DNA from: Cephalotus follicularis | Lineage: Eukaryota; Streptophyta; Magnoliopsida; Oxalidales; Cephalotaceae | Assembly: GCA_001972305.1 (NCBI GenBank) | Contig: BDDD01000059.1 | Location: 578,358 to 642,357 of the forward strand | Length of the DNA stretch: 64,000 bases | Reading direction: 5' to 3' | In this document: positions 324-64,000 of the stretch, one piece after another | Layout of the letters: every line of letters begins with the position of its first letter | Position numbering within the stretch: position 1 is the first letter of the stretch | Made by a program: the position numbers and the translations under genes | The notes under the pieces: model-generated | The model's database searches: none | What the model was told of the DNA's origin: nothing | The model's input: the letters and a program-made list of their open reading frames with translations, nothing else

Positions 324-557
324 AGACCTCATAGTCAGACCACACAACGGAAATCAGACCTCAAAGTTAGACCTCATAGGTCATTGCAAACCTCAGGGGT
401 TATTGGCAGACCTCAGGGGCAGAGGGCAGACCTCGTGGGAGTCATTGGTGGACCTCAAACGTAGAGGGCAGACCTCAGAGGGCTATGGTTAGAGCTCAGT
501 GGTAGAGTTCAGACCTCAGAGCTTCAGGGAAGACCTCGGTGGTAGAGGTTGGAACTC
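324..557 (+). repeat. 20-bp-phased array, core AGACCTC
   Basis: About 13 copies of the core AGACCTC or a one-base variant start at 324, 337, 356, 369, 388, 408, 428, 450, 470, 491, 511, 531 and 551. From 369 onward the spacing is 19, 20, 20, 22, 20, 21, 20, 20, 20. The spacer bases differ from unit to unit while the core is kept. The array ends about 150 bp upstream of a TATA box. Confidence 0.85.
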
Positions 558-694
558 AGACTTCGTTTGGCAGAGCTGGGAAGCTCGATACATGAAGTCA
601 GACTTTGGAACTCTTTTGCATACCTCCTTGATCAGAGGGATCAGAGTCTATAAGCTTAAGCATAAGATTATATTGAGATGTTTATTGATGAGTC

Positions 695-721
695 TTCAGC
701 CATATGGTATATAAGGCTGAA
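695..721 (+). promoter_or_regulatory. TATA box inside a short inverted repeat
   Basis: TATATAAG lies at 708-715. It is flanked by the 7-bp perfect inverted repeat TTCAGCC (695-701) and GGCTGAA (715-721). A TATA box here fits an LTR promoter downstream of the AGACCTC array. Promoter activity is inferred. Confidence 0.45.
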
Positions 722-1369
722 AGGTTATTTCCTTAACACAAGAAAGTGACTTATCGTATCAAACACACTTTGGAACAACTCTTGATACGAACGAGTTTCA
801 AACCCATCAAAAACTTTCTCTCATTTCACTTAGTTGTTGATCTCTCCGTATCGTCTTCTTTCATCAGAGGACTTTGACAGAGCTTGGAGCTCTTGACAAG
901 AGAAGGACAAACATATCATCTCGCAGCCTTCAAACTTCATTATAGGTGGAGATAGTTTCTACACTGGATTCTATCTTTACTTGTATTGAAGACTAGATCA
1001 GGTCTAAACACATATAGCCTCCAACCTTTCACAAAATTTGCTTGCCCTGGATTGGGTAGCAAGATTAGTGAAGGCAAAAGCTTGGATTTGAAGCTTGAGG
1101 AAAAGCAAAGTTTTACGGTTAGCGAAACCCTGTGTTAAAGTTTGAGGGATAACACAAAAGTGGAGGAGCAAAGAATTAGGTAATTCTAACATCCTTCTTT
1201 ATCGCTTTTGTGTAGATGCTTGGGTTTCGGGTTGGTGAGTTGATGTTGTGGTTTTTGTGTGTAACCCTAATATCAATTTAAGGAGTGACCTATGTTAGGG
1301 GTAGGGAAACCCTAGCTCCAGCTGAAATCCTATGCTTGGAAAGTTTCTCTGATTCGATTGAAACCCTAA

Positions 1370-2982: not shown

Positions 2983-3221
2983 ACATATGTTCACTGATTT
3001 AGAAAGAATGTTTTAATATTTATAGCCGCAAGTGCACGGATCATGTAGTAACGGGCCGAATGCAGGGAAACGTAAACTAGTTGTAATTTATCCAACCTAG
3101 GCGAAGCATACCAATTTTAAGAGATAAACTAACAAAAACTACTCCTAATTATGCAAAGTAAAATAAATAAACAAAACAAGGAATTAAAACTTAAATAATT
3201 AAAAATGATGAATTCAAAAGA

Positions 3222-3899: not shown

Positions 3900-4230
3900 C
3901 TGCAGAGGAGACGTCGACTTCTTCTGGAAAGGCATCGACTTCTTTTGGTTAAAAGTCGCGACTTTGTGTACTGCGAGTGAAAGGCGTCGACTTCTTCTAT
4001 GAAAGACGTCGACTTCTTTTGCTCCAAATTCTACAGGTTGATTTCGCACAAAGACGTCGATGCAATTGATGAAAGACGTCGATGTCTTTCTCATAGCTCT
4101 GCTGCATTTTCCATAAAAGGAGTCCACTCTCAAGGAAAGACGTCGACTACATTTTTCCAACCCAGAACTTCATCTCCAACCCAGAAAAGACGTCGACTTC
4201 TATTTGAAAGGAGTCGACTTCTTTGTCCTG
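3900..4230 (-). repeat. TCGAC phased array in Athila-1 left LTR
   Basis: About 11 copies of a GACGTCGAC-type core occur, many in pairs 20-22 bp apart. Variants include GGCGTCGAC, GGAGTCGAC and GACGTCGAT. The spacers differ markedly from those in the right LTR although the flanks are almost identical. Confidence 0.85.
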
Positions 4231-4418
4231 TTTTCTGCAGAATTTTGCATTTCTTCAATCTTTATTCCTTTAAACTCCAATTTGCACAATTTGGGGTAGT
4301 ATTTTTGCACTTTGGTCTTTAAACACTTGTACCTGAAAATCATTAAAACACAACCAAAGTAGTCTATTCCAAGCATAAAAATATAACAAATATATCATTA
4401 AAAATCACACATTTTTAT

Positions 4419-5178
4419 NNNNNNNNNNNNNNNNNNNNNNNNNNNNNNNNNNNNNNNNNNNNNNNNNNNNNNNNNNNNNNNNNNNNNNNNNNNNNNNNNN
4501 NNNNNNNNNNNNNNNNNNNNNNNNNNNNNNNNNNNNNNNNNNNNNNNNNNNNNNNNNNNNNNNNNNNNNNNNNNNNNNNNNNNNNNNNNNNNNNNNNNNN
4601 NNNNNNNNNNNNNNNNNNNNNNNNNNNNNNNNNNNNNNNNNNNNNNNNNNNNNNNNNNNNNNNNNNNNNNNNNNNNNNNNNNNNNNNNNNNNNNNNNNNN
4701 NNNNNNNNNNNNNNNNNNNNNNNNNNNNNNNNNNNNNNNNNNNNNNNNNNNNNNNNNNNNNNNNNNNNNNNNNNNNNNNNNNNNNNNNNNNNNNNNNNNN
4801 NNNNNNNNNNNNNNNNNNNNNNNNNNNNNNNNNNNNNNNNNNNNNNNNNNNNNNNNNNNNNNNNNNNNNNNNNNNNNNNNNNNNNNNNNNNNNNNNNNNN
4901 NNNNNNNNNNNNNNNNNNNNNNNNNNNNNNNNNNNNNNNNNNNNNNNNNNNNNNNNNNNNNNNNNNNNNNNNNNNNNNNNNNNNNNNNNNNNNNNNNNNN
5001 NNNNNNNNNNNNNNNNNNNNNNNNNNNNNNNNNNNNNNNNNNNNNNNNNNNNNNNNNNNNNNNNNNNNNNNNNNNNNNNNNNNNNNNNNNNNNNNNNNNN
5101 NNNNNNNNNNNNNNNNNNNNNNNNNNNNNNNNNNNNNNNNNNNNNNNNNNNNNNNNNNNNNNNNNNNNNNNNNNNNNN
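4419..5178. other. Assembly gap, 760 N
   Basis: A run of N begins 8 bases before the predicted inner end of the Athila-1 left LTR and ends inside the pol side of the element. The true length is unknown. Confidence 1.
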
Positions 5179-7818
5179 GAGCTTGAATTTCTTAACGGGA
5201 GATGCAACTTTATGAGTAAAGATCCACTTTTGGTTTTTTGGAGGTTCCTCAATTGATGGTTTAGGCAAGGATGTGGACAAGGGTCCCACTGGCTCTAATG
5301 GCTGCATACTAAACATATCAACAAAGTCACCTCCATCGCCATCCTCTAAATCCCACATGCAATCATTGAAATTTCCATCCAAATCAATGTCGAATTGCGT
5401 CTCAATATAATCGGGAAAGGTATGGATTGCATTCAATTCATCGAAATCACCGGCATGCTTACCCAATCGGAACACATTGAAATCCACGGATGTGTTTCCA
5501 AAGCTCAATCTCATCAGACCGTTTCGACAATTGATTAACGCATTGCTTGTAGCGAGGAAAGGTCTTCCAAGGATAACAGGAATTTGATCATTTAAGTTTG
5601 CAACAGGCTGGGTGTCTAAGACGACGAAGTCGACAGGAAAGAAAAACTCTCCAACCTTTATCAACACATCCTCGATTTTTCCTCGCGGTACCTTCACAGA
5701 CCTATCCGCTAATTGCAATGTCATCGTGGTAGGTCTTAAATCTCCTAATCCAAGCCTTTCATAGACCAATGATGGCAACAAGTTCACACTTGCTCCTAAA
5801 TCGAGCAAGGCATGCTCAATTTTCGTGTTTCCAATAACACAAGCAATTTTTGGGCAGCCAGGATCTTTATATTTTCGCATCGTGGGTTGCGAAAACAATG
5901 CACTAATGTTGGCTGCCAAGAAAGCCTTTTTCAGGGTCTGAAGGATCCTCTTTTTCGTGCATAAGTCTTTTAGGACTTTTGCGTAAGAGGGCACCTGTTC
6001 AATGGCTTCAAGCAATGGAATATTGATTTGGACTTGTTTAAATGTTTCAATGATCTTTTCCATTGCTGGGGCTTTCTTGCTTTGCAATCTGTTTGGAAAG
6101 GGAGCTGGTGGGTCAAATAAACGTTTTGGCTCCTCAACCGGTTGTTTCTTCTTTTCATCCTCTTTCTCCTTTCTCAATTCCTCGTGCGCATTCGATTGCA
6201 TTGGTTGCACGGATGGGTCAACCAATAAATCTTGCGGCTCTTCTTGCGTTAAGGGTTCCTCCATTTGCTCGTTCACGTTCGCCGTTTGATCCGCTGGATG
6301 GTATTCAGTTCCACTCCTTAGGGCAAAAACTTGTTTTGATGGACCCGAGGAGTAAACTGAATTTTGCGAATTAACAGGTTGTTGGAATTGAGCGGAATGG
6401 TTTAAGGTAGTCCTAGGATTCGGGTCAGGTTGTGAGGGCATTTTTCCTTTTTCTCTTTCATGCAGAGTGGATGCTAGTTGCGAAATTTGTTTTTCCATGG
6501 CATGCTGACTAGTCATCACAGTGCTGATAAGGAGTTCCATGCTCTTTTCTAATGACGACATCCTAGGTGTATCATCCCTTTGGTTTGGCAAGCTTGAAGG
6601 TTGTTGGTTTGAGAATTGATTTTGTGGTGGGAAGGATGGTCGATTAGTGTTTGAATTTTGGGAGAACCTTGGAAATGTCTGCTGTGGGGCAGATTGGCTA
6701 GGGAAGCTCGAAGGTTGTCCCGAAAAGTGTGGAGGTGGGGCACCAACGCTAGAAGGCTGCCCCGAAAAGCTAGATTGTCCTCGCATGTTTTGTCCTTGAC
6801 TCCATGAGAAGTTTGGGTGATTTCGCCAACCCGGATTGTAAGTGTTACTATATGGGTTGTATTGGTTCATAGCACACACATTCTCAGGAGTATATTGATT
6901 TTCAATGTAGCTTTGGCATTCTTCAAGAACATGATTTGGGGACTGGCACCAAGAACACATAGGGGTGGTTTGATTGATTTGATTTACTTGTGTGGAACCC
7001 CTAATAAGTGATTCTAGTCTATTCATGAGACTGTCTAATTGTGCCTCTTTAGCAACTGCTCCTTCTATAACGTACCCTTTACTTGGCAATGCTCTCTCGA
7101 AAACTTGAACCGACTCCCACTCTCTAGTTCGCTCACCCAAATCTAAAAGGAAATTCCATGCATGGTTTTCATCAGTGTATGAGGTGAAACCATCGGGACA
7201 CATAGATTCGACCAATTGCTTGGTCTGGTAGTCTATCCCTTCGTAGATGATTTGGCATAAATGCCACATGTTTAAGCCATGATGAGGACACTCTAAGAGA
7301 AGATCCTTAAAATGTTCCATACATCTAGAAAACGATTCATTTGGTCTTTGACGAAATTGGAGAATGTCGTTCCTAAGTTTGTTGGTTTTATGAAGCGGAA
7401 AGAATTTCTTAAGGAACGAGACAATGAACTGATCCCAAGTGGAGATGGAATTAGTTGGGAGACTGTAGAGCCATTTCTTAGCTCCGTCTTTAAGAGCAAA
7501 GTTTATGAAGCGCAACTTGATATCATCGTCAGATAGTTGCTGAAGTTTCATGAGGGCACATACCTCCTCGAATTCGCGAAGGAAGAGATATGCATCATCA
7601 TTAGGTACACCATGAAAGTGCGGGAGCATGCTAATGAATTGTGATTTTAACTCAAAATTGTTCCCGTTAGGTGCAGGCAACAGGATACTGGATGGTTGCG
7701 CTGTCCTAGCGGGGTAGAATTTATCGCGAAGAGTTTGAAGTGGGCGTGCGTCCGCCATTGGTCTAGGTTGATGAATTCTTTCTAAGCGATGATTTGGACC
7801 ACGCACCCAGTCGGTCAT
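5179..7818 (-). CDS. Athila-like gag and protease region
   Basis: The frame opens with MTDWVRGPNHRLERIHQP and runs to the assembly gap without interruption. Residues about 60-230 are a retrotransposon gag domain (LPHFHG, YLFLREFEEVC, WDQFIVSFLKKFFP). A CCHC zinc knuckle follows near residue 288 (CSWC, then H and C in CX2CX4HX4C spacing). Then comes a Pro/Ser/Gln-rich linker to about residue 440. An aspartic protease lies near residue 670 with LLDLGASVNLLP, followed by TLQLADRSVKVPRG and PVILGRPFLATS. Gag forms the virus-like particle and the protease would mature the polyprotein. The same region in Athila-2 is closely similar. RT and integrase are not visible. Confidence 0.88.
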
Positions 7819-8313: not shown

Positions 8314-8319
8314 AAAACT

Positions 8320-9798
8320 TGTTCACTGATTTAGAAAGAATGTTTTAATATTTATAGCCGCAACTGCACGGATCATGCAGTAACGGGTCGAACGCAGGGA
8401 AACGTAAACTAGTTGTAATTTATCCAACCTAGGCGAAGTATACCAATTTTAAGAGATAAACTAACAAAAACTACTCCTAATTATGCAAAGTAAAATAAAT
8501 AAACAAAACAAGGAATTAAAACTTAAATAATTCAAAATGATGAATTCAAAAGACTAAGGAATTAAGCATGCAATAAATAAAAGTGAAGAGAATATATAAT
8601 AAAGAAACGGTTTTAGGGTATAGAAACTCACCATAGATTGTATAGAACAATTCCATTGAGTTGAACGCTCATACCTTGATAAACAACGAGAGCTAGGTCT
8701 ATACGGAGTGCGGCGGTGATGACAAGACGTATGAGTAGTCATGCTAGGTCTATATGAAGTACGGCAACGATAACGGCGGCAAGACGTATGAGTAGACATG
8801 CTAGGTCTATACGAAGTGTGTTCGATGCGACAAATCGTATGAGTAGACTCCGTTGTGTTGAGCACCATTTATTCGCCAATTTTTAAGCTTCGTCGACAAG
8901 ATGAGTGTGGATTTTAATCAGAGAAACAAAGTGTGTGCGAAGGCATAAATATTGAAGAACAAATCAAATATTCAAGGGTTTTTTATTGATGGAATTGAAA
9001 CAATACAAATCTAGGCTTGTTCTTCCCTAAAACCTTGGAAAGGTTTAGCTACTAAACATTGAGAAAGAAAACTAAATTGATAAAGAAATTAGGGTTCTAC
9101 AGCCTATGCTTACTCTACTTATGTTATTCTGGCCGAATATAATATGTTTATATACTACACAATTGATCGAAAACGGAATAAAAGCAATCCTAGTTACAAA
9201 ATATGGCAAAAATCTAAACTTTCTATTTCTGCTGCAGAGGAGACGTCGACTTCTTCTGGAAAGGCGTCGACTTCTTTTGGTTAAAAGTCGCGACTTTGTG
9301 TACTGCGAGTGAAAGGCGTCGACTTCTTCTTTGAAAGACGTCGACTTCATTTGGTGCAAAAGTTACAGGTCAAATTCGATAAAAGACATCGATCCCTACT
9401 TCAAAGACGTCGATGTCTTTTTCATAGCTCGTTTGAAGATTGCTGCGTTTTCCAGAAAAGGCGTCGACTTCTAAAGGAAAGACGTCGACTTCATCTCCAA
9501 CCAAGAAAAGACATTGACTTGAATTGAAAGGAGTCGATGCTTTAGCTCCAACCCAGAAAAGACGTCGACTTCTATTTGAAAGGAGTCGACTTCTTTGTCC
9601 TGTTTTCTGCAGAATTTTGCATTTCTTCAATCTTTATTCCTTTAAACTCCAATTTGCACAATTTGGGGTAATATTTTTGCACTTTGGTCTTTAAACACTT
9701 GTACCTGAAAATCATTAAAATACAACCAAAGTAGTCTATTCCAAGCATAAAAATATCACAAAGAATGCATTAAAATCAACACATTTTTATGCTAAACA
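8320..9798 (-). repeat. Athila-1 5' LTR (1479 bp)
   Basis: This copy has both ends (TGTTCACTG to GCTAAACA). It repeats the left LTR with about nine differences in the first 910 bases. The array is longer than in the left copy. Confidence 0.92.
9242..9590 (-). repeat. TCGAC phased array in Athila-1 right LTR
   Basis: GACGTCGAC-type cores start at 9242, 9263, 9315, 9337, 9385, 9406, 9460, 9481, 9510, 9530, 9561 and 9582. Close neighbours are 20-22 bp apart; the longer gaps are 29-54 bp. The part from about 9310 to 9500 aligns with the SIRE-like LTR array at 56090-56295. Confidence 0.88.
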
Positions 9799-9803
9799 AC
9801 ATA

Positions 9804-13276: not shown

Positions 13277-16134
13277 GAGATTGTAATACCCTGCTCGTTC
13301 GTATATGTGTTTTACGGACTTTTAATATGTTTGTTTTCGGGCTTTTAAATTTTTGTTGTTATATGAAGTCCGTTTGCTCGGTATTGAGCCTATGTGTTTT
13401 GGGCTGACTGATACCAGCCTGAACCTTGGATATGTTGGTATGTGAATGCTTGGGTTTATGTTATGTCAATTCTTAATAAAAATAACTATTTTAAAACAAT
13501 TTTATCTCTTTTATAATTCAATTCTCTTTTATTTTATTTTAAAATTCCTTATTTTCTATTTTTTTTTATCTTATTTCCTTTTCTTCCCTCCCTATCCTTC
13601 TCTCACCCAAATCCCTCTCTTCTTCAAACTCTATCTCTCCAAAAATCTCTCCCTCTCTTAACTCCTCACGCGTTTTCTTCCTCTCCTTCCTTACCTAGCC
13701 CAAAATTCTCTCCCTTTTCCCGTTTAAGAGTGGTTTTTGGTTCATTGTGATATGCCATTCTCTTTTCTTTTGTCTGCTCATAGCCGAATTCTGCAAAGAT
13801 AGAATTGTTTTGGTTCCTGTGAAGTTGCTCCATTAAAAAGTCAGGTTTGTGCTAGTATTTCAATCCTTAATTGTCCTGTTTTAGTTATTATATCCTTTGA
13901 CAGGCTTTGAGGTTATACATTCTTTTTCTTCCCTTTTGTTTTCTGTTGATCAGTGAATTGAGTCTGGAAATCGTTGTGTTAATACAACAGTCTTGTGACA
14001 CCATTACAAGTTAGTTATTTCTTTTGCTGTGGTGGTTCATGCTACATTGTTATGAATCCGATTTTATGTTCATTTTGGCTATGAGAGGTTGGTTTTGCCT
14101 TCTATCAATTCGTAATATGTTGTTGTTCTGAGTCAGATGATCTGCCTTTAGGCATCTGTACTTATTGTAATCTGGTCTTAGAAACTGAAAATGACTGTTG
14201 ACAGTAATATTGGTTTATAAATAGGAATGCATGTGATTAGAGTTCACTTTGTTGTTTTTTGAATATAAACACTGGTCATAGAATTGTGTCAATTCTGTGT
14301 TTTCCTACTGACTAAATGCCGTATAATGTCTTGTGTATATGTTTATATGTCTCTGGTATAGAGTTATACATGTTTGGACAGTTTTTGCATTGAAAAATGT
14401 CGAGTTCTGCTGTTCTGTCGTCCAGAACAGTCGGCTGTTCTTATGGACAGTCGGCTGGTTTGGTTGTGTAGTCGGCTGCCTTATGAAGACAGTCGACTGC
14501 CTTGCTTTGCATAGTCGGCTGGACCTTTGTCACAGTCGACTGCCTGCAGTCTGGTTTGTGTAGTCGACTGACCCTGTTAGATAGTCGGCTGCCAAGCTTC
14601 TTCAGTCGACTGGTGCTCTGTAACAGTCGGCTGTTTTGCCCAGAAAATGCCTATTTTCATTTGTTTTGATCCGTTTGTTCTTAGAATCGATCTGGGTCTG
14701 TTCTAAACACTATAATGAATCTGCTTTATGTCTCTAATGATTCTCAGACCCTTATATGAATGGTTTTATATCTTTTAGATTGTTGTGCTTCAAAAGGAAG
14801 TTTGACCTAACAATCTTTTCGTAAGTACTTTTGTGAACGCATAAGGTATGGATATTCTGTTCTTTGATACTCTCTTCAACTTTATCGAGACAAAATTCAA
14901 GTTTGATTTATGAATGGATATTCATTTCCTTAATATGTTTCTTCGGTTTTGTGAACTTTGCTACGTTTCGAATTTGATATGTTCTGAAAATAAAGTCAGT
15001 TTTGACATTTTGCGAAATTGAGTGTTCTCGACTTTATTCTTATGATATGATAGATTATGATATGTTATATGTTATGGCCATCTCGTTTATAGGGAGAAAT
15101 AAATGAGTTGATACTCCAAATATGAAATGTATCGTTTAATAACGATTTTCGAATATGTTTTGAAAAGCATATTTTATGTGTTTCTAAATTGATTTTGATA
15201 AATCAATGTTTTGGAAATGAGTGAATATTGTGTAATTGTACCCACCTATGGGGCATACCATAGGCATGTCGTAGGCCTGGCACGGGGACATGACACTTTC
15301 ATAGCGGTGTGACTAGTCTACAGTGTCTCTGTATATTATGAATAAATCCCATGAGGTGGATTTATGGATCCGCTATGTATGATAGAGGCGTATGAATCGA
15401 TTCTAGTATATGGAATATGTGATAAGATATGTAATATGTGATATGATATGATATGAGAATTGACTTGTGTAGTGCCATACACCTCAATTCTAATGGGCAT
15501 GTGAAATTAGCGCCTCCCTTGACATATATGTTTCTAATATGTGATATGTTATATGGCTCAGTATGAATTATGAAATTGTGATTTTGAAATGTTTCGTATG
15601 TATATATTTCAAAGTTATGAATTGGGTTTCATGATGTTCGAAAATGAACATTTAAATGATTTACTGCTTAAGATTTCTGTTACGAGTTTTATTGAAATCT
15701 TACTGCTTTTAAATTATCGTTTACCGTTTTATATTCTTTATCTGTACTGAGGTTTGCTCAGCCGCATTTTTGTTTTCCATGCGGCAGGTTATCAGGAGCA
15801 GCGAGGGAAAGTGTGAATGAGAGATGACCACCTTTATGTCATGGATCCCTAGGAGTGTGATCCCTATGTGTTTTCAGTTAGAGTTTGTCATGAACAATAA
15901 GATACTTTTGCTTTATGTTTTTAATAATTGACCCTTGGAACATATGTTTTAAGTTTTATGAATATGTTAAGTTTTTTAGTTTATGATCAGTTTTCAGTAT
16001 GTTATGTTTTGACCGCCACGTTTTTGGCTAATAAAGTTATGCCTATGTTATGTTCAGTTAAGTTATGTTTTGTTAAGTTATGATCTGTATTATGACCTGT
16101 GACGACTCCCGACGTCCGGGGGTGTTACAGAGAT
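13277..16134. mobile_element. Solo LTR of a Tekay/Del-type gypsy element (2848 bp)
   Basis: The LTR runs 13282-16129, from TGTAATACCC to GGGTGTTACA, the terminal form usual for this lineage. It is flanked by the perfect 5-bp repeat GAGAT (13277-13281 and 16130-16134) and has no internal coding region. That is the product expected of LTR-LTR recombination. It lies in the integrase end of the surrounding Tekay-like pol. Inside are a pyrimidine-rich tract (13540-13730), the AGTCGRCTG array and a segment rich in ATATG words. Confidence 0.93.
14428..14633 (+). repeat. 21-bp-phased array, core AGTCGRCTG
   Basis: Ten copies of [C/T]AGTCGRCTG start at 14428, 14448, 14469, 14490, 14512, 14533, 14561, 14582, 14603 and 14624. 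The intervals are 20, 21, 21, 22, 21, 28, 21, 21, 21. The core is nearly invariant, palindromic when R is A, and the 11-bp spacers share no sequence. Confidence 0.95.
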
Positions 16135-21244: not shown

Positions 21245-21999
21245 ATATACAGAAATCCTTCCTTCAACAATGTTCTGCGTGGAGGACTTTGATTTGTTAA
21301 TGGAAACGCTGAGAAATATGTCTGAGAAGAAGGTTTGGTTGATAATCCCTGCACAGAGTAAGCAAACTCGTTGAAGGCCCATGAGGTTGTTCTCCCGGGG
21401 ACACTCCAACGCTCAAGTTAAACAATGCACATGAAGTTTTAGGTTCTTTAGTATGCAAAAATGGCTGACATTTGTTTAGACAGTGAAACTGGTATTTATA
21501 GTGCTGGTTTGTAACCGTTTGAGCATGAAATTCGGAGATGATTACTGTGCCCCTAAGGAAATACCGAGGATCTCGAGCCATTTTCTTGATTCTCCTCCTG
21601 ATTTTGTGCCAGTACGTTTATCATATCTTATCTTTCCATGTTTGAAGAGGTAAATCCCTGGGATGTAGGCTGATTTTAAGGCTTCATCTTAAGAAGGAGG
21701 AGGAAGGAAAGGTCCTCTGGTCTCTTATTTGCTTCAAGGTCTTCAACGTCAAGAGCTTTTTCAAGGGCTTGTGCCTGAAGCATTAAGTCATCTGCAATGC
21801 TGCTAAGGAAGCAGTCCTCTGCATTGCAGTCAAGGAGGAGGTCCTTGGCACTGATGCCGAGGAGGATGTCCTCTGCATTTCTGACGAGGAAAAGGTCATC
21901 TGTCTTATATTCATGTAAGGTTTAATGCATTTGGACACTTGGCTACGTCCATGGATGACACGTGTCGTTCTGTGTATAGATAGAGTTTTCTCCATATCA
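21245..21999 (-). repeat. Tat-1 3' LTR
   Basis: It matches the right LTR end to end, finishing at CATATCA. The first bases merge with flanking TA repeat, so the left limit is uncertain by a few bases. Its 27-bp array has one unit fewer than the right LTR. Confidence 0.88.
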
Positions 22000-44182: not shown

Positions 44183-45020
44183 TGTTTAGCATAAAAATGT
44201 GTTGTTTTTAATGCGTTATTTGTAATATTTTTATGCTCGGAATAGACTACTTTGGTTGTGTTATATTGATTTTCAGGTACAAGAGATAAAAGACCAAAGT
44301 GTAAGAATACTACCCAAAAGTGTGCAAAATTGGAGCTTAAAGTGTAAAGATTGAAGAATTGCCAAATTCTGCAGAAAACAGACCAAAAGCGTCGACGCCT
44401 TTCATATACATCGATGTCTTTTCTGGGTTTACAACAAAGAAGTCGACGTCTTTCCTTGAAAGTCGACGTCTTTTCTGGAAAATGCAACAATCTTCAAAGA
44501 GCTATGAACAAGACATCGACGTCTTTTAACACATGGATCGACGTCTTTGTGCCAATTCGACCTGTAACTTTTTGACCAAAAGAAGTCGACGTCTTAAAGC
44601 ATAGGAGTCGACGTCTTTCACTCGCATCTTAGCAAGTCGCGATTTTTACAAGAAGACATCGACGTCTTTGGGAAAAAGTCGACGTCTTCCTCTGCAGCAG
44701 AAATAGAAAGTTTAGATTTTTGCCACATTTTGTAACTAGGATTGCTTTTATTCCGTTTTTGATCAACTTTATAGTATATAAGCAATGTTATTTCGGCCAG
44801 ATTACAAGAAAGTAGTGTAAGTAGTGTAAGTAGAGTAGTAGAGAGGTTGTAGAACCCTATTTCTCTTTATCAATTTAGTTTTGTTTTACAATGTTTAGGA
44901 GCTAAACCTTTCAAGGTTTTGGGGAAGAACAAAGCCTAGATTGTTATTGTTTCAATTCCATCAATAAAAATCCTTGAATATTTGATTTGTTCTTCAATAT
45001 TTCTGCCTTCGCACACGCCT
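44183..45020 (+). repeat. Athila-2 left LTR, partial
   Basis: It starts TGTTTAGCATAAAA. It contains a TCGAC array (44386-44700) and a TATA box TATATAAG at 44775-44782, and ends at GCCTTCGCACACG. About 840 bases are shared with the right LTR. Confidence 0.88.
44386..44700 (+). repeat. TCGAC phased array in Athila-2 left LTR
   Basis: About 12 cores of GTCGACGTCTTT or ATCGACGTCTTT type occur, several pairs 20-22 bp apart. The array ends about 75 bp upstream of the TATA box. Cores agree with Athila-1 while many spacers do not. Confidence 0.85.
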
Positions 45021-49146: not shown

Positions 49147-50583
49147 TGTTTAGCATAAAAATGTGTTGTTTTTAATGCGTTATTTGTAATATTTTTATGC
49201 TTGGAATAGACTACTTTGGTTGTGTTATATTGATTTTCAGGTACAAGAGATAAAAGACCAAAGTGCAAGAATACTACCCAAAAGTGTGCAAAATTGGAGC
49301 TTAAAGTGTAAAGATTGAAGAATTGCCAAATTCTGCAGAAAACAGACCAAAAGCGTCGATGCCTTTCATTTACATCGATGTCTTTTCTGGGTTTACAACA
49401 AAGAAGTCGACGTCTTTCTTTGGAAGTCGACGTCTTTTCTGGAAAATGCAACAATCTTCAAAGAGCTATGAACAAGACATCGACGTCTTTCAACACATGG
49501 ATCGACGTCTTTGTGCCAATTCGACCTGTAACTTTTGACCAAAAGAAGTCGACGTCTTAAAGCATAGGAGTCGACGTCTTTCACTCGCATCTTAGCAAGT
49601 CGTGATTTTTACAAGAAGACATCGACGCCTTTGGGAAGAAGTCGACGTCTTCCTCTGCAGCAGAAATAGAAAGTTTAGATTTTTGCCATATTTTGTAACT
49701 AGGATTGCTTTTATTCCGTTTTTGATCAACTTTGTAGTATATAAGCAATGTTATTTCGGCCAGATAACAAGAAAGTAGTGTAAGTAGTGTAAGTAGAGTA
49801 GTAGAGAGGTTGTAGAACCCTAATTTCTCTTTATCAATTTAGTTTTGTTTTACAATGTTTAGGAGCTAAACCTTTCAAGGTTTTGGGGAAGAACAAAGCC
49901 TAGATTGTTATTGTTTCAATTCCATCAATAAAAATCCTTGAATATTTGATTTGTTCTTCAATATTTCTGCCTTCGCACACACTTTGTCTGTCTGATTAAA
50001 ATCCACAAACATCTTGTCGGTGAAGCTGAAAGTTGGTGAATAAACGGTGCTTAATTCAACGGAGTCTACTCATACGATTTGTCGCAACGAACACACTTCG
50101 TATAGACCTAGCATGTCTACTCATACGTCTTGCCGCCGTCGTTGCCGTACTTCGTATAGACCTAGCATGTCTACTCATACGTCTTGTCATCACCGCCACA
50201 CTCCGTATAGACCTAGCTCTCGTTGTTTATCAAGGTATGACCGTTCAACTCAATGGAATTGTTCAATGCAATCTACGGTGAGTTTCTATACCCTAAAACC
50301 GTTTCTTTATTATATATTCTCTTCACTTTTATTCATTGCATGTTTTATTTCTTAGTATTTCAAATTCAACGTTTTTAATTATCGAAGTTTTAATTTCTTG
50401 TTTTGATTATTTATTTTATTTTGCATAATTAGGAGTAGTTTTTAATAGTTTATCTCAAAATCGGTATACTTCGCCTAGGTTGGATAAATTACAACTAGTT
50501 TACGTTTCCCTGCGTTCGACCCGTTACTTCATGATCCATACACTTGTGGCTATAAATTTTAAAACATTCTAAATCAGTGAACA
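49147..50583 (+). repeat. Athila-2 right LTR (1437 bp)
   Basis: It runs from TGTTTAGCATAAAA to CAGTGAACA. Array at about 49350-49665, TATA box TATATAAG at 49738-49745. The 51-54 bp tandem repeat with a 102-codon frame lies at 50047-50355. Confidence 0.93.
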
Positions 50584-50795: not shown

Positions 50796-50828
<33 letters not shown>

Positions 50829-53997: not shown

Positions 53998-55191
53998 ATG
54001 TGCCTTTTGTTGACTTTGAGAAATGTGACTTTTGTTGACAAAAGAGTCATGGGAGACAGAAATATCGATTTAGAATTCTGTTCTTCCGAGTTTTCGTTTG
54101 TTTCTTGGTTAGAGGATCTCCATCTCATTCCCCTTGTACAAATTTCTGACCCTTTTTACATAAAATTGGTCAAGGAATTTTATTCTAATCTTAGGATGGT
54201 TTCTAGCCAAAATGAGGAATTTGCCCTCTCTTCTTCTGTTAAAGGGCAAAGGATTTATCTAGATGCTAGGATTTTAGCTTCGATCTTACACATTCCACAT
54301 ACCGGTTTATATGTTTTTGAACACAAAAAATGGCCGGAGGTTGAGGGTTTTCACCCTAACCATATTTTGTCTCTTTTGTACCCAAATGATCCAAATGTTC
54401 ATCCCAATATGGCACTGACTACCAATAGATTATCAGTGGACCATAGGCTTCTCCACCATCTTATTGTACATCAAATTCTACCCACCGGTGGAGGGTATGC
54501 AAAGTTGTCTAGGATGCAAGTTTTTCTAATGTGGTGCATCCTTTCTAAAATTGAGTTTTGTTTTCCTCTCCTCATGCTCAAGACTATGGTTAGAGCATTC
54601 TCACAAAAGAAATCAGTTTTACCTTTCGGCTCTATCCTTACCAAAGTCTTTCTCCATCATCAAATTCGGCTAGAAGGAGAGATAGCAACCAAATTGAAGA
54701 AAGAGGACACGTACAACAAGAGTACTTTGAATCAGATGGGGTGGAAAAAACAGGAAGGAATATGGACTTATTGCCCCAAAATTGACCAAGTACAAAGGAT
54801 TGCAAGGGAAGAGCAAGAAGACAATCCTCCTTGGGAAGCACATGAAGAATCTGCATCTGCTTAGCCTCAAGCTCAAGGAAGCTCATCCTCTACTGATTAT
54901 GACAGGGTGATGGAGTTCATGCGTTCTCAATTTGCTTCCACGCAAGCCTCGCTTGATAATAAATTTGAGCAAGTCAACACGCGGCTCACTAGATTGGAGA
55001 ACGATCATAAAATACTTTATTCCGACTACGAAAATGTTGATGACAACATCTACTACGATCTAAAAGTCGTAAAGAGGCGTCTCAAACGAATGGAACGAAA
55101 GCTTGCCGATTCCAAGACTATTGATCGTTGCGAAGAGACTTTGGGCGATGAATCCTCCAATTCCGATGCCCCTCCTGCTGCTGATGCCTGA
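53998..55191 (+). pseudogene. SIRE-like env-region ORF, unit A copy
   Basis: It matches the unit B ORF from LRNVTFVDKRVMG onward but lacks the basic N-terminal segment. The core (FSFVSWLEDLHLIPLVQISDPFY, FHPNHILSLLYPNDPN, MQVFLMWCILSKIEF) resembles the 'putative plant transposon protein' family. The C-terminal part (RLTRLENDHKILYSDY, VVKRRLKRMERKL) looks like a coiled coil. The frame is interrupted. Confidence 0.7.
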
Positions 55192-55842
55192 TCTTGTTGA
55201 TTCTATCTTGTTTCTGTTCTGTTGCTGTTTTTGTTTGTGTTGTAATGAAAACTAAGTGTTTATTTATAATTTTTGTAAGAACAAGTTTGAATTTATGATA
55301 TTAATGAAATGTTTATGTGTTTATGAATTTATGTTTGATGTTATGAATTCTGTCTATGAATTGTGTTGTATGAATATATATTTGATTTATGATATAATTG
55401 TGTTGTTGATTATGAGTTCTCTCAATTATTGCCAATAATTACTTTCATTGCCAATATATTGATATTTTTATGCATAATGCCTATATTCACTCTTTTTACC
55501 CTTGCTTATATTAAGGGGGAGCTAATGATTTCTTCCTTTTGTAGAACTTTTTGATGCTATACAAAAAAGGGGGAGAAATGCTAATGGCTCAAAAGAAATA
55601 TGTTTTGGGAGAAATGCTAATGGCTCAAAATGCTATGATTTTTTTTGAAAAGGCTCAATATGGGAGATTAAGACTAAGACTCATAACTTATTGCTTATTT
55701 GATATTGCATGAACTTGCCATTGCTTACATTATAATTTGTCTCTATTGGTATTCACTTATAATTTTAAATTGGTATTACTTATTGCTTACATTATAATAT
55801 GCCTTTTGAGCAAATTATTGTCATCATCAAAAAGGGGGAGAT
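55192..55842 (+). other. SIRE unit A 3' noncoding region and PPT
   Basis: It contains repeated AAAAAAGGGGGAGAAATGCTAATGG-type blocks and ends in the polypurine tract AAAAAGGGGGAGAT immediately before the LTR. Multiple PPT-like GGGGGAG runs are typical of SIRE elements. Confidence 0.75.
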
Positions 55843-57068
55843 TGTTGACGATTTAGTCCCAATCCTTGTTTTGATGATAACAAACAAATTTACTTGATGT
55901 GCAAGAAATTACAAGTTCAATACCAAGGCAAAATACCATCTGCAGAAGAAGACATCGACTCTCAAGAAAAGACATCGACGTCCGTACAAGAAGACATCGA
56001 TCCCTTCCAAAAGACATCGACGTATTTAGTGCAAGATCAAATTACAATGAAGACATCGTCCTTCCAGTAATGACATCGACGTTCGTACAGAAAGACATCG
56101 ACTCCTTTCAAGATGACATCGACGTCTTTTAGTGCCAGAAGCTACTGTGTAAAATTGCAATTGAAGACATCGATCCCTACATCAAAGACATCGACATCAG
56201 TACAAAAGACATCGACGCCTTTCCATAGACATCGACGCCTTTCTAGAGCTACCTGCATTTCCCAGAAAATGCATCGACTCCCACAGAAGAAGTCGATGTG
56301 ATGTTCAAAGATTCAAATCCTGGAGATTTCCCAGAAAAGACATCGACGCCTTTTTAAATGAACAAGACCCAGGAAACATGGAACGGCTAGTACACGCACT
56401 TCCAACGGCCATCAGCTATAAAGACATCGACGCCTTTCTAAAGTAGTCGACGTCTTTATGTCAGCAGAAGACAAATTCAAAGATTGCAACTACACATTAT
56501 TAAATCAAAAGCTTCCATGATTTATGCAACGGCTACAAATCTTTTATGGCTATAAAAGGAAGACTGAAACCTCAGAAGATAAACAAGAATTCAGAATTAT
56601 TCATATCAATCACACAACATCAAGAGATATCAAATCCAAGCATTCAAGTGTGCAAAAAGCTCAAAGTGCTCCATAGTGTTCTAACAAGCTTCTAAGCTTT
56701 ACTCTTTGAGATTATCTGCGTGTTTCTTATTGAGAGCTATATTTTTCATACCTACCAATTTGAGAGGTCATCTTGTAAACACTTTTATCATTACTTGTAA
56801 AAGAGGAGAATCCTCTAAGGCTTTGAGGTCAAGGTCTTGTGATTGAGGTCAATCACGAAATTGTGAGGTGTAACGATTTGCTGCCTTAATCAAATCGAGA
56901 TAGTGGAAACTCAAGTAGCTCCCTTGAGAAAAGTGGACGTAGGCAAGAGTTAGCCGAACCACTCTAAATTCGGAGAAGTTTTTCTTTCCTTGACTCTTTA
57001 CATTTAAAGTTTTTAAATTTCCAATATTTACTTCAATATTCAATTCACCCCCCTCTTGTATATTGCAA
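55843..57068 (+). repeat. SIRE-like LTR A
   Basis: It starts TGTTGACGATTTAG after the PPT. It carries a GACATCGAC array, then TATAAAAG at 56551-56558, then a leader to TATATTGCAA, where similarity to LTR B ends. Divergence from LTR B is about 1.4% by eye. Confidence 0.85.
55951..56290 (+). repeat. 20-22 bp phased array, core GACATCGAC, SIRE LTR A
   Basis: Cores start at 55951, 55971, 55993, 56013, 56052, 56072, 56094, 56115, 56166, 56187, 56208 and 56228. The intervals are 20, 22, 20, 39, 20, 22, 21, 51, 21, 21, 20. LTR B has the same array with two units fewer near its start. Confidence 0.93.
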
Positions 57069-59735
57069 CCTTCAAAACCAAAATGTAAAATGCCTTGTCT
57101 CCTTAAATGAAGATAGTTGGATGTGGCATAGAAGGCTTGGACATGTGAGTATGAGAACAATTGCAAAAATTTTGAAACATGATCTAGTTAAAGGTCTTCC
57201 AAAATTAAGTTTTCAAAAAGATAAATTGTGTGATGCTTGCCAACAAGGTAAACAAATAAGAGCAAGTTTTAAACCTACAAACATTGTTACAACTTCTAGG
57301 CCACTCGAACTACTTCATATGGACCTTTTTGGACCAATAAACATAAGAAGCTTAGGAGGTAAATCTTATGCCTTTGTTATTGTTGATGACTACACTAGGT
57401 ACACATGGGTTTACTTTTTAGCACATAAAAGTGAAACTTTTACTTTCTTTGCCAAATTTTGTAAAATTGTTCAAAAGGAAAAAAGACTTTCAATTTTGAA
57501 AATTAGAAGTGACCGTGGCAAAGAATTCGAAAATAATGTTTTTGATGATTATTGCACTAAAAATGGTTTTAAACATGAGTTTTCAACCCCTAGGACTCCT
57601 CAACAAAATGGAGTTGTTGAAAGGAGAAATAGAACTTTGGAAGAAATGACAAGGACAATGCTTTGCGAAAATGATTTACCAAAGTATTTTTGGGCGGAAG
57701 CCACAAACACCGCATGTTACATTTTAAATAGAACATCAATAAGGCCTATTCTCAAAAAGACTCCATACGAGTTATGGAAGGAGAGAAAGCCTAACAGTAG
57801 CTACTTTCGTGCCTTCGGATGTAAATGCTTCATTCACAACAATGGCAAAGATCAACTTGGTAAGTTTGACTCCAAAGCGGATAAAGGTATATTTCTTGGC
57901 TATTCTCTCACTAGTAAAGCATATAGATGTTTCAATAAGCGTACTTTATTAGTTGAAGAATCTATGCATGTTGTATTTGATGAGTTACATGATTCTACTT
58001 CACATGTGCATGATAGTATAGAGTTTCATGAACCATCGGAGAACATAGATGTTGAACCTAAGGAAGATTACCAAAAAGAACTTATAGATAAAACATATAA
58101 GGTTGTTAGAGACCACCCACATGAGGCTATCATAGGTGACATTCAACAAGGCATTAGAACTAGATCTAGAGCAAACACTTGTAACTATGCTGCATTCCTA
58201 TCTCACCTAGAACCCAAAAACTTTGTAGAAGCGGAAAAACATGAAAATTGGATTTTAGCTATGCAAGAAGAGCTAAACCAATTTGATAGAAACAAAGTTT
58301 GGTTTTTAGTACCTAGACCAAAGGACCATTCGGTTATAGGAACCAAATGGGTTTTTAGAAACAAGATGGATGATCAAGGAACCATTATTAGAAATAAGGC
58401 TAGACTAGTTGCCCAAGGCTATTCACAAGAAGAAGGAATAGATTATGATGAGACTTATGCCCCGGTTGCTAGACTAGAATCTATTAGATTGTTGCTTGCA
58501 TTTGCATGTTTTAATAATTTCAAATTATATCAAATGAATGTGAAAAGAGCATTTTTAAATGGTTTTATCAAAGAAGAGGTATATGTTGAACAACCTCAAG
58601 GTTTTGAGGACCCTCATTTTCCAAATCACATTTTCAAATTGAATAAAGCTTTATATGGACTCAAACAAGCTCATCGTGCTTGGTATGAGCGATTGACAAA
58701 AATTTTAATTGAAAATGATTTTAAACGAGGAAATGTTGATATCACTCTTTTTACAAAATTCAAAGGTAATGATTTACTTATTGTTCAAATTTATGTTGAT
58801 GATATTATTTTTGGATCTACTAATGACTCTTTATGCAAGGAATTTTCAAATACAATGAAAGCTGAATTTGAAATGAGTTTAATGGGAGAGCTAAACTATT
58901 TTCTTGGACTACAAGTCACACAAAACGAAGATGGGATCTTCATCAACCAAACAAAATATACAAAGGATATTCTCAAGAAGTTTGGGATGGAGAATGCTAA
59001 AACGAGCAAGACACCTATGAGTACCTCTACAAAGCTTGACAAAGATGAACAAGGTAAATGTATCGATCAAAAGCTTTATAGAAGTATGATAGGTTCTTTA
59101 TTATACTTAACCGCAAGTAGACCCGATATTTTGTTTAGTGTGCTTGTGTGCCCAGTTTCAATCCAATCCTAAGGAATCCCATTTATTTGCTGTGAAAAGG
59201 ATTTTTCAAATATCTTGCATACACTCCTACATTAGGCTTATGGTATTCACGAGACTCTAGTTTTGACTTACATTCATACTCGGATGCCGACTTTGGTGGT
59301 CATAAAGTAGACTGCAAGAGCACTAGTGGCTCATGCCAATACCTAGGAAGCATGCTAGTCTCTTGGTTTAGCAAGAAGCAAAATTCAGTAGCTTTATCTA
59401 CCACTGAAGCTGAGTATATTGCAGTAGGTAGTTGTTGTGCTCAAATTCTTTGGCAAAAGTAACAATTGGTTGATTATGGTATATGTGTTAAGGATGTATC
59501 TATCAAATGTGATAATACTAGTAGTATTTGTCTTGCTAAGAACCCAGTCCATCATTCTAGGACAAAGCATATAGACATTAGATATAATTTCATAAGAGAA
59601 CATGTAGAAAGTGGTGACATTGTTTTAGAATATATTCCCACCGAAAAACAAGTGGCGGATATTTTCACCAAACCTCTAGATGAGAATTCTTTCTCTAAGT
59701 TTAGAAGAGAATTAGGTTTGTGTGAGCTTGAATGA
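57069..59735 (+). pseudogene. SIRE-like pol: integrase, RT, RNase H
   Basis: It starts with the pre-integrase wording SLNEDSWMWHRRLGHVS. The integrase zinc motif ends CDACQQGKQ. The core shows HMDLFGP, IVDDYTRYTW, IRSDRGKEFENN and TPQQNGVVERRNRTLEE, a D,D-35-E arrangement. RT shows WVFRNKMDD, RLVAQGYSQEEGIDYDETYAPVAR, LYGLKQAHRAWY and the catalytic QIYVDDIIFGS. RNase H ends with KHIDIRYNFIREHV and ADIFTKPLD. This is the order of Ty1/copia (integrase before RT), with wording typical of SIRE/Maximus. Mostly open, with about two to three breaks near RNase H. Confidence 0.92.
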
Positions 59736-60120: not shown

Positions 60121-60322
60121 ATGCTCATTCTTCATTTTACCCCCATTTTTTAGTTTTCGAAAATTTTCTTCTCTCTCCATTTTTCTTCAAAAATCGTTCT
60201 ATTTGGTCGAAAAACATCCTCTGATTCCTTCTCCATTTTTAAAAACAGTTTTCATCTTGACCAATCCGTCTGTTCTATCACTCTCTGTGTTTATCTTCTA
60301 TACTCACCAACTGTTTGTAAAA

Positions 60323-61660
60323 ATGCCTAGGACTAAACAACCTGCCAAAAAGAAGGCTGCTTCTACCTCTCAACCTAAGAAATCTGCTAAAAAGCAGAGA
60401 CTTGAACTTAGAGAGTCTTCCCCCGACCCTTCTCTCTCGGATTCAGAATCTGAAGAGCAAGTCCCTGCGCCTTTGAGAAATGTGACTTTTGTTGACAAAA
60501 GAGTCATGGGAGGCAGAAATATCGATTTAGATTTCTGTTCTTCCGAGTTTTCGTTTGTTTCTTGGTTAGAGGATCTCCATCTCATTCCCCTTGTACAAAT
60601 TTCTGACCCTTTTTACATAAAATTGGTCAAGGAATTTTATTATAATCTTAGGATGGTTTCTAGCCAAAATGAGGAATTTGCCCTCTCTTATTCTGTTAAA
60701 GGGCAAAGGATTTATCTAGATGCTAGGATTCTAGCTTCTATCTTACACATTCCACATACCGGTTTATATGTTTTTGAACACAAAAAATGGCCGGAGGTTG
60801 AGGGTTTTCACCCTAACCATATTTTGTCTCTTTTGTACCCAAATGATCCAAATGTTCATCCCAATATGGCACTGACTACCAATAGATTATCAGTGGACCA
60901 TAGGCTTCTCCACCATCTTATTGTACATCAAATTCTACCCACCAGTGGAGGGTATGCAAAGTTGTCTAGGATGCAAGTTTTTCTAATGTGGTGCATCCTT
61001 TCTAAAATTGAGTTTTGTTTTCCTCTCCTCATGCTCAAGACTATGGTTAGAGCATTCTCACAAAAGAAATCAGTTTTACCTTTCGGCTCTATCCTTACCA
61101 AAGTCTTTCTCCATCATCAAATTCGGCTAGAAGGAGAGATAGCAACCAAATTGAAGAAAGAGGACACGTACAACAAGAGTACTTTGAATCGGATGGGGTG
61201 GAAGAAACAGGAAGGAATATGGACTTATTGCCCCAAAATTGATCAAGTACAAAGGATTGCAAGGGAAGAGCAAGAAGACAATCCTCCTTGGGAAGCACAT
61301 GAAGAATCTGCACCTGCTCAGCCTCGAGCTCAAGGAAGCTCATCCTCTACTGATTATGACAGGGTGATGGAGTTCATGCGTTCTCAATTTGCTTCCATGC
61401 AAGCCTCGCTTGATGATAAATTTGAGCAAGTCAACACGCGGCTCACTAGATTGGAGAACGATCATAAAATACTTCATTCCGACTACGAAAATGTTGATGC
61501 CACCATCTACTACGATCTAAAAGTCGTAAAGAGGCGTCTCAAATGAATGGAACGAAAGCTTGCCGATTCCAAGACTATTGATCGTTGCGAAGAGACTTCG
61601 GGCGATGAATCCTCCGATTCCGATGCCCCTCCTGCTGCTGATGCCAGATCTTGTTGATTC
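60323..61660 (+). CDS. SIRE-like env-region ORF, unit B copy
   Basis: The likely start is the ATG at 60323 (MPRTKQPAKKKAAS); an upstream in-frame ATG at 60203 would add 40 residues with no family likeness. The first 40 residues are very basic (KKKAAST, PKKSAKKQR, a possible nuclear signal), followed by an acidic stretch (SLSDSESEEQ). The core matches the 'putative plant transposon protein' type. The C-terminus is coiled-coil-like (FEQVNTRLTRLENDHKI). No signal peptide or clear membrane helix is visible from the 60323 start, so 'env-like' refers to position only. Function unknown. The copy is not fully intact at its 3' end. Confidence 0.7.
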
Positions 61661-62104
61661 TATATTGTTTCTGTTCTATTGCTGTTTATGTTTGTGTTGT
61701 AATGAAAACTAAGTGTTTATTTATAATTTTTGTAAGAACAAGTTTGAATTTATGATATTAATGAAATGTTTATGTGTTTATGAATTTATGTTTGATGTTA
61801 TGAATTCTGTCTATGAATTGTGTTGTATGAATATATATTTGATTTATGATATAATTGTGTTGTTGATTATGAGTTCTCTCAATTATTGCCAATAATTACT
61901 TTCATTGCCAATATATTGATATTTTTATGCATAATGCCTATATTCACTCTTTTTACCCTTGCTTATATTAAGGGGGAGCTAATGATTTCTTCCTTTTGTA
62001 GAACTTTTTGATGCTATACAAAAAAGGGGGAGAAATGCTAATGGCTCAAAAGAAATATGTTTTGGGAGAAATGCTAATGGCTCAAAATGCTATGATTTTT
62101 TTTT
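61661..62104 (+). other. SIRE unit B 3' noncoding region
   Basis: It has the same blocks as unit A, with AAAAAAGGGGGAGAAATG repeats, joining directly to LTR sequence at about 62105. Confidence 0.7.
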
Positions 62105-63245
62105 GTTTACTTGATGTGCAAGAAATTACAAGTTCAATACCAAGGCAAAATACCATCTGCAGAAGAAGACATCGACTCTCAAGAAAAGACATCGACGTCT
62201 TTAGTGCAAGATCAAATTACAATGAAGACATTGTCCTTCCAGTAATGACATCGACGTCCGTACAGAAAGACATCGACTCCTTTCAAGATGACATCGACGT
62301 CTTTTAGTGCCAGAAGCTACTGTGTAAAATTGAAATTGAAGACATCGATCCCTACATCAAAGACATCGACGTCAGTACAAAAGACATCGACGCCTTTCCA
62401 TAGACATCGATGCCTTTCTAGAGCTACCTGCATTTCCCAGAAAATGCATCGACTCCCACAGAAGAAGTCGATTGTGATGTTCAAAGATTCAAATCCTGGA
62501 GATTTCCCAGAAAAGACATCGACGCCTTTTTAAATGAACAAGACCCGGAAAACATGGAACGACTAGTACACGCACTTCCAACGGCCATCAGCTATAAAGA
62601 CATCGACGCCTTTCTAAAGTAGTCGACGTCTTTATGTCAGCAGAAGACAATTTCAAAGATTGCAACTACACATTATTAAATCAAAAGCTTCCATGATTTA
62701 TGCAATGGCTACAAATCTTTTATGGCTATAAAAGGAAGACTGAAACCTCAGAAGATAAACAAGAATTCAAAATTATTCATATCAATCACACAACATCAAG
62801 AGAAATCAAATCCAAGCATTCAAGTGTGCAAAAAGCTCAAAGTGCTCCATAGTGTTCTAACAAGCTTCTAAGCTTTACTCTTTGAGATTATCTGAGTGTT
62901 TCTTATTGAGAGCTATATTTTTCATACCTACCTATTTTGAGAGGTCATCTTGTAAACACTTTTATCATTACTTGTAAAAGAGGAGAATCCTCTAAGGCTT
63001 TGAGGTCAAGGTCTTGTGATTGAGGTCAATCACGAAATTGTGAGGTGTAACGATTTGCTGCCTTAATCAAATCGAGATAGTGGAAACTCAAGGAGCTCCC
63101 TTGAGAAAAGTGGACGTAGGCAAGAGTTAGCCGAACCACTCTAAATTCGGAGAAGTTTTTCTTTCCTTGACTCTTTACATTTAAAGTTTTTAAATTTCCA
63201 ATATTTACTTCAATATTCAATTGACCCCCCTCTTGTATATTGCAA
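62105..63245 (+). repeat. SIRE-like LTR B
   Basis: It matches LTR A from about 55895 onward, including the array (62165-62475) and TATAAAAG at 62727. It ends at TATATTGCAA, exactly where LTR A does. Confidence 0.85.
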
Positions 63246-64000
63246 GAGTGTTTTATTTCAGATCACCACAACATCAACAGAATTGAAATGGTGTCACCAT
63301 TGCATTCAATGGTGACACACAAACATGGCAAGAAGAAGAGGGGCCAAAGGTTACACCAGTGGGTGAAGGCTCCTTCTTTCTTTGCCGCTACAAGCTTGAG
63401 TAGATTCCTTTTGATCTTCTCCAAGCCTCAGGAACAGCAAGCAATCCTTCCAGCAAACACCAAGAGCTAGAACTCACTCACTCTCTCACTTAGCTTAGAA
63501 AAGGAGTATTGATTATGACCAACGAAGTCAGTAATCAATCCACCCTAGATAAGCCTTGCTTGGTGTATATCAATAAAAGGGAACACACACTTGCAGAGAA
63601 GAATTCGCAGTCCAATTGCCCAGCAAAAGTGTCTCAACTCTTTTCATTCATTTCTGCAGAAAATGCTTAATACCAGCCCCTAATTCTCTCTCCCAATCTC
63701 CCATTTACTCAGATCATGGCCTTCATTACCTTGGAGTCCGAAGCCATGATTCCCACGTTTCTAAAACGTGCAAGAACGGGAGCTGGATGCTGGAAACGAG
63801 GGAGAGATCGTGCCCACGATTTGAGCTCGTGCACAGGTTGCACGTTCTGCTCAAAGACGTCGACGCCTTCCAAAGGACGTCGACGCCTATGCATCGTGGC
63901 ACAAAAGCACATCGGTGCTTTCTAAAAGACATCGACGTTTTTATCAGGGATACGCATCGATGTCTTTCTAAAAGACGTCGACGCCTTCTGGCTAGTGAAG
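63246..64000. other. Unassigned DNA with a TCGAC array at the window edge
   Basis: No gene is recognised. A perfect 12-bp inverted repeat with a 4-bp loop (GTGTCACCATTG, CATT, CAATGGTGACAC) lies at 63291-63318. From 63855 to 63990 there are five to six GACGTCGACGCC-type cores, the first two 20 bp apart. This suggests another LTR that continues beyond the window. Confidence 0.55.

Follow-up and report, generated by a model that had tools for sequence, protein, structure and literature searches.

The stretch analysed here (the window) comprises 64,000 nucleotides of the Cephalotus follicularis genome (contig BDDD01000059.1, positions 578,358 to 642,357), and it contains long terminal repeats (LTRs) of several retrotransposon families, eight of which carry an array of a short core repeated mostly at 20-22 bp. 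We find that such arrays are a genuine genome-scale architecture, and that the cores of the Athila, Tekay and SIRE arrays all hold the hexamer RYCGAC on one strand. Family names (Athila, Tekay, SIRE) follow the initial annotation of this DNA, the check made here being of superfamily domains, and so does the label "copia-like" for the first LTR. All eight arrays were found where that annotation had placed them, with the following associated features:

324..564, plus strand: AGACCTC array of the first LTR, 13 cores (at most 1 mismatch), a different core, mostly at 19-22 bp spacing
708..713, plus strand: TATATA box 3' of the AGACCTC array
3910..4218, minus strand: array of 9 cores (at most 2 mismatches) in an Athila LTR, the core reading RTCGACGTC in sense
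9242..9590, minus strand: array of 11 cores in the second LTR of this first Athila element
14429..14633, plus strand: Tekay-type LTR array, 10 AGTCGRCTG cores at 20-22 bp (one at 28)
44388..44683, plus strand: array of 10 cores in one LTR of a second Athila element; TATATA at 44775
49352..49646, plus strand: array of 10 cores in the other LTR of this second Athila element (start derived from the LTR offset of 4964); TATATA at 49738
55951..56455, plus strand: SIRE LTR array, core GACATCGAC, 15 cores (at most 2 mismatches); TATAAA at 56551
57121..59172, plus strand: open reading frame (ORF) with copia-type integrase and reverse transcriptase (Pfam), between the two SIRE LTRs
62168..62630, plus strand: SIRE LTR array, other LTR, 13 cores; TATAAA at 62727

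Near-matching 8-mers (at most 1 mismatch) lying 20-22 bp apart number 24-65 in each of the eight arrays, against a mean of 0.4-1.0 and a maximum of 6-10 for the same count in dinucleotide shuffles (200 per array). The spacing of 20-22 bp that had been claimed is indeed the dominant period, but it is not uniform within the arrays: the Athila cores are mostly paired, with 19-22 bp within a pair and 29-64 bp (mostly 47-54) between pairs, and the successive core gaps of the first LTR are 13, 19, 13, 19, 20, 20, 22, 20, 21, 20, 20 and 27 bp. The same annotation had announced a TATA box some 75-150 bp beyond the array in the first, Athila and SIRE LTRs; we place it about 90-100 bp after the last core in Athila and SIRE and about 144-171 bp after it in the first LTR, all these distances having been subtracted by hand, and in the three types the arrays of the window occupy a unique 3' (U3) position upstream of the core promoter. 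In the 667 bp beyond the Tekay array just one word resembles a TATA box, a TATAAT at 14711, 78 bp past the last core, and it is not retained in the aligned relatives.

A scan of the window in 300-bp tiles also flags, among other stretches outside the arrays, A-rich repeats at about 8.0-8.2 kb, a G run at about 50.8 kb, and 27- and 29-bp repeats near 32.3 kb, so that some of the period signal in the window is unrelated to the finding. Repeats with a 27-bp unit (AGGTCCTCTGCACTGCTGCCGAGGAGG type) are seen at 21814-21902, 32213-32357 and 36069-36164, possibly in LTRs, in which case such repeats are not all of 21 bp.

Beyond the window, we took one 10-kb stretch every 100 kb, 20 in all (contig C1 of the 1.577-Gb assembly supplying 18 and contig C2 the other 2); the step was a fixed choice, the positions of GACATCGAC matches were already in view at that time, and one stretch (L050) contains listed matches. 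A search for array segments to which no motif was supplied (at least 4 units, mean spacer identity at most 0.6, simple words excluded) returned 26 segments of period 20-22 in 11 of the 20 stretches, several of which belong to one LTR and some of which lack the RYCGAC core. Each of eleven other period classes, from 12 to 36, gave 0 or 1 segment, and Markov-3 shuffles of the sample gave 0 in 10 runs. The autocorrelation of 9-mers (at most 1 mismatch) over the 20 stretches reaches 606, 561 and 350 at distances of 20, 21 and 22, then 295, 334 and 440 at 40-42 and 329 at 61, compared with 85-375 elsewhere and 19-64 in one third-order Markov control. The 20-22 bp excess over shuffled sequence that had been foreseen for this genome is therefore present in an evenly spaced, two-contig sample. 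In the whole genome, pairs of GACATCGAC separated by N{10,14} number 27,829 (reversed control, 145) and those separated by N{3,33}, that is 12-42 bp apart, 38,068 (reversed control, 179), where these and the later genome counts are of copies and not of independent events. Among the first 100 spacings listed, 3 are of 19 bp, 27 of 20, 26 of 21, 18 of 22, 2 each of 31, 40 and 41, and 20 of 42.

One correction alters the view of the arrays: the cores of three of the four types are not unrelated. On the sense strand they read RTCGACGTC in Athila, GACATCGAC in SIRE and AGTCGRCTG in Tekay, so that RYCGAC is common to the three and the AGACCTC array alone is without it. When all 6-mers are ranked by score (pairs at 20-22 bp minus one third of the pairs at nine other distances), GTCGAC and CGACTG tie for the top (27 pairs against 3), followed by TCGACT, AGTCGA and TCGATG; GTCGAC scores 26, whereas the top score per run in ten Markov runs ranged from 2.7 to 17.0. 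The 105 palindromic units divide into AGTCGACT (43), AGTCGGCT (21), AGCCGACT (18), AGCCGGCT (1) and other forms (22), and 91 of them contain RYCGAC, units having been chosen within 2 mismatches. The canonical A/GCCGAC is not the usual form, GCCGAC occurring on either strand in 39 of these 105 units (the 18 AGCCGACT and the 21 AGTCGGCT). The SIRE-type units are mostly ATCGAC or GTCGAC, and 12 of the 77 have a terminal T for C. Since single variants are confined to one strand in six of the seven loci having any (one of the six has a single unit), the recognised site is probably asymmetric, of the form GYCGAC. An apparent avoidance of the double form AGCCGGCT (1 against 8.8 expected, Fisher p = 0.018, pooled) has been withdrawn, because the side that varies differs by family and the pooled test is confounded; this double form occurs 1,657 times genome-wide, with no matching single counts for comparison.

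Some further cores may be mentioned here. In locus L035, at 5800-5940 and 7590-7730, two copies of an array lie 1787 bp from each other, with a TTGTTYCAAGRC-like core some 5-7 times at 20-22 bp spacing, and may belong to a short LTR element; in L042, at 6580-6760, there are GCGTTGACGTC-like cores at 19-22 bp that resemble RTCGAC with the CpG changed and are also W-box-like (TTGAC). Candidate relatives in viral contigs were rejected: of 5 loci inspected by eye, 4 are short tandem repeats with alike spacers and 1 is low-complexity.

How distinct, then, are the families that share this core? From 42 array regions 12 were removed as being the same place, and clustering of the remaining 30 merged SIRE and Athila, partly via a chimera (L021, see below), after which regions were grouped by hand from blast links into SIRE (11 arrays), Athila (5), the Tekay type (4), F5 (L032, L034) and F4 (L016, L017, L027), with L011, L021 and the lone array L031_2888 outside the group sets. 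Copia domains lie between the SIRE LTRs, gag and protease domains are found in Athila (ORF 4405-7818 of its first element), gypsy pol domains stand next to L042 (Tekay type) and next to L034 (F5), and the 3-kb loci of F4 have no frame of at least 150 aa. Local alignment of core-masked arrays (SIRE, two Athila, Tekay, copia, F5 and two F4), run on both strands for all 28 pairs with 60 letter shuffles per pair, gave z > 4 for the Athila-Athila and F4-F4 pairs only; no similarity above z = 4 was thus found between the spacers of different families in these arrays, though a weaker likeness may exist. Unlike spacers around one core point to either an independent origin or a very old exchange. We observed by eye that CTGCAG or CAGCAGAA words edge both SIRE and Athila arrays (near 44353, 44690, 55935 and 56460), a possible trace of an old exchange that falls below z = 4.

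One could go further and suppose that the arrays serve recombination, the shared cores letting unrelated LTRs swap their U3 modules. The chimera L021 (G000:C1 near 1384.7-1385.1 kb) speaks for this: the start of a SIRE U3 with its array (matching SIRE 55842-56353) is joined inside a shared core to Athila sequence (matching 49541-50007), with the remainder of an array, TATA and repeat/unique 5', and continues into Athila gag. A search of the genome for this exact junction, which would miss altered or different ones, gave a single occurrence, which speaks for what is probably one ectopic event and not for a selected function, so that we regard recombination as a very unlikely role for the arrays. 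Recent recombination as the origin of the shared core was likewise rejected, with one chimeric locus only in its favour.

The SIRE part of the window is itself composite. The stretch 54014-55646 recurs at 60471-62103, so that parts of SIRE follow each other in tandem, in the order internal end, LTR, internal and LTR; the first SIRE LTR begins near 55844, and the second misses part of the upstream junction (62103-62163, compared with 55646-55988 in the first). An ORF with PF20167 (Transposase_32) lies upstream of both SIRE LTRs, at 53998-54864 and 60203-61546. A 200-aa piece of it has 247 matches, the 120 listed being all from Cephalotus follicularis at 75-96% identity; for the copia reverse transcriptase ORF, identity among the 120 matches listed goes up to 68% and no Cephalotus is named.

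Unlike spacers also bear on another origin, in which the arrays would be decayed minisatellites: slippage would have multiplied a unit of about 20 bp, and the cores would be its remnant. In the palindromic type the identity of adjacent spacers is 0.338 (35 pairs), against 0.327 between loci, and in the GACATCGAC type it is 0.346 (7 pairs), against 0.459 between loci (a figure that includes same-family copies). Adjacent spacers are thus as unlike as those of different loci in the palindromic type, and the units of these two types are not fresh tandem copies. In neither the palindromic RYCGAC nor the GACATCGAC type are units alike throughout, as those of a minisatellite should be; the RYCGAC classes keep their cores while spacers are unlike and the spacing varies by 1-2 bp. 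The AGACCTC class, with its tight 20-bp period and recurrent spacers, suits the idea better, as does part of the SIRE array, which is a block duplication (offset of about 100 bp, 77.5% identity). For the RYCGAC arrays we consider this origin unlikely, all the more so given the slower evolution of cores than of spacers in five of five groups (see below), although slippage may still be a route by which the arrays grew.

The AGACCTC class deserves separate treatment. Its CAGACCTC pairs number 5,117 genome-wide (control, 23), and among the first 100 spacings listed 52 are of 20 bp, 11 of 18, 19 or 21 (one of 21), 24 of 40-41 and 13 elsewhere. The class has a 20-bp period, that is 1.9 helical turns, so the two-turn pitch proposed for all arrays does not extend to it, and it is partly tandem repeat, its whole units being in part alike with recurrent spacers. 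In the 20-stretch sample the 6-mer GACCTC gives 8 pairs at 20-22 bp and 0 at the nine other distances, and a re-scan placed all its clustered pairs inside one tandem repeat of locus L044. That repeat (4267-4706), a true 20-bp tandem repeat with GACCTC and CTTGAA, is likely a relative of the AGACCTC class, and again the sort of sequence that slippage would yield.

The initial annotation had offered a small-RNA-linked role as its own alternative, the period then reflecting 21-22-nt small RNAs or the production of phased small interfering RNAs. We find no sequence support for it beyond the coincidence of lengths: units have 8-10 nt in common and their spacers are unlike, so that no single 21-nt RNA could address all of them, and the period varies within one array (20, 21, 22, 28) and is 20 in the AGACCTC class. 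This explanation seems to us hardly credible.

If the cores are recognised by something, they should change more slowly than what surrounds them. In MAFFT alignments (which also omit L032_9093), made on arrays picked by RYCGAC pairs (most SIRE, all F4 and one Athila locus being fetched by the exact core pattern) and with cores defined within the compared sequences themselves, which biases toward core conservation, the divergence of cores and spacers is 0.130 and 0.420 in Tekay (0.378 outside the array), 0.082 and 0.230 in SIRE, 0.080 and 0.204 in F5, 0.196 and 0.338 in F4, and 0.155 and 0.241 in Athila. A blast comparison again found the cores less divergent in five of five groups, and the difference persists without the pattern-fetched loci (0.064 against 0.169 in 4 SIRE arrays, 0.096 against 0.207 in 4 Athila arrays). 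The CpG bases of cores are retained in 93-100% of units (chosen within 2 mismatches), and CpG outside cores differs at 18-35%. A conserved motif among variable spacers, the hallmark of a homotypic cluster, is hence seen in all five groups and in the two unselected subsets. Constraint on the cores is likely, the Tekay alignment being the strongest case, and it falls short of proof.

We lean, slightly, towards reading the arrays as homotypic clusters of putative host-protein sites in the U3, which would act as LTR enhancers. One host DNA-binding protein would recognise RYCGAC with family-specific flanks, would bind to one site after another at a pitch of about two helical turns, and would raise transcription from the TATA box that follows some 90-100 bp further on. 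Its site would have been adopted by several copia and gypsy lineages that are unrelated to one another. We infer binding, activation and a candidate factor from the observed arrays with their period, core and divergence, and from the TATA position in Athila and SIRE. That copia and gypsy lineages came independently under one code (a single host protein, RYCGAC arrays, a two-turn pitch) is possible, but we hold it with less than even confidence, and a DREB-type AP2/ERF protein as the binding factor is a first guess, put forward tentatively. Among the claims of the initial annotation, that of protein-binding sites agrees with the shared design, the constrained cores, the lone 20-22 bp period and the position upstream of TATA, but a strict helical phase is not apparent from the gaps.

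Indeed, several observations weigh against the enhancer interpretation. In gaps longer than 23 bp the resultant is 0.48 (n = 23) and 0.41 (n = 28) at 10.5 bp, and 0.54 and 0.36 at 7 bp (array copies not being independent), so that there is no clear 10.5-bp rule in the longer gaps; two turns is the commonest pitch, and a footprint or a slippage length would serve equally. Picking loci by RYCGAC pairs or by the exact core favours apparent core conservation. The Athila core is not clearly below the rest of its LTR (0.155 against 0.142, or 0.096 against 0.102 without the fetched locus). When cores are masked before aligning, the difference disappears in SIRE and F5 (0.165 against 0.155 and 0.148 against 0.151, respectively, in both-core columns) and is reversed in Athila, Tekay and F4, so that this control was not passed; gaps collecting inside the masks are probably responsible, and the absence of slower cores in this alignment is what decayed minisatellites would also show. 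As to the factor, CBF3 is described as not recruited at the GTCGAC sites of RGL3 (data not shown in that paper; relevant passage of PMC5209670), and the tomato Rider U3 has a CBF site and yet no cold induction according to the passage of PMC6762207 that names ONSEN alongside Rider.

One could also ask whether the arrays are landing sites for an anti-silencing or silencing-recruiting protein, VANC-like, and not classical enhancers. According to the passages concerned of PMC5735166, the motif bound by VANC21 is 9 bases long and has built up in tandem repeats within noncoding parts of transposable elements (TEs), and VANC6 motifs are also present in an unrelated TE; here too motifs of 8-10 bp have become numerous in the noncoding DNA of several TE families. 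We find this reading doubtful, since a core common to copia and gypsy elements is more readily explained by a host factor than by a protein that the elements encode, and the Athila, SIRE and first-LTR arrays stand upstream of TATA. The sole extra SIRE ORF examined, that with PF20167, gave a fold model that is not usable (mean pLDDT 40.5), no search for VANC-like genes having been made.

Should the enhancer reading with its common site be correct, a single host factor might control how active a large part of the retrotransposon load is, and tens of thousands of strong sites would be scattered through the genome. If the lineages had moreover come independently under one code, the whole retrotransposon community would be switched together, with shared cores also permitting U3 exchange between superfamilies. 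Work on stress-induced LTRs usually takes one family at a time; one motif and one protein would make a simple target, and a natural experiment on the selection of site number and spacing.

Three known systems invite comparison. The VANC motifs of VANDAL elements in Arabidopsis are, like our arrays, short (8-9 bp) and amplified in noncoding TE DNA, are read by a sequence-specific protein and are also found in an unrelated TE (same passages of PMC5735166); VANDAL elements are DNA transposons with their own VANC gene, whereas here the arrays are in LTRs, upstream of TATA, with no partner gene known. The C-repeat/dehydration-responsive element (CRT/DRE) of the DREB/CBF proteins shares the core itself, RYCGAC being listed as CBFHV and GTCGAC as a core CRT/DRE (CRTDREHVCBF2) in the relevant part of PMC9138379, and a passage of PMC4287451 reports an enrichment of A/GCCGACNT, DREB sites, in those maize TEs that are associated with responses to cold, heat and salt; in contrast to the CCGAC of CRT/DRE, most units here have T for the first C (GTCGAC, ATCGAC), and the CRT/DRE passages contain no long phased array. 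In the titles and first lines of abstracts of the papers listed, with subscription journals mostly outside the scope, no description of such arrays appears. ONSEN with its heat elements, Tnt1, Tto1 and Rider also have host transcription-factor sites in the LTR. The LTRs of Tnt1 and Tto1 contain repeat motifs, and these stress-responsive elements are single families with a few sites, whereas here there are about 8-15 sites at 20-22 bp, tens of thousands of unit pairs, and one core across unrelated lineages. Clustered factor sites in LTRs are already known; what surprises here is one core in several unrelated lineages.

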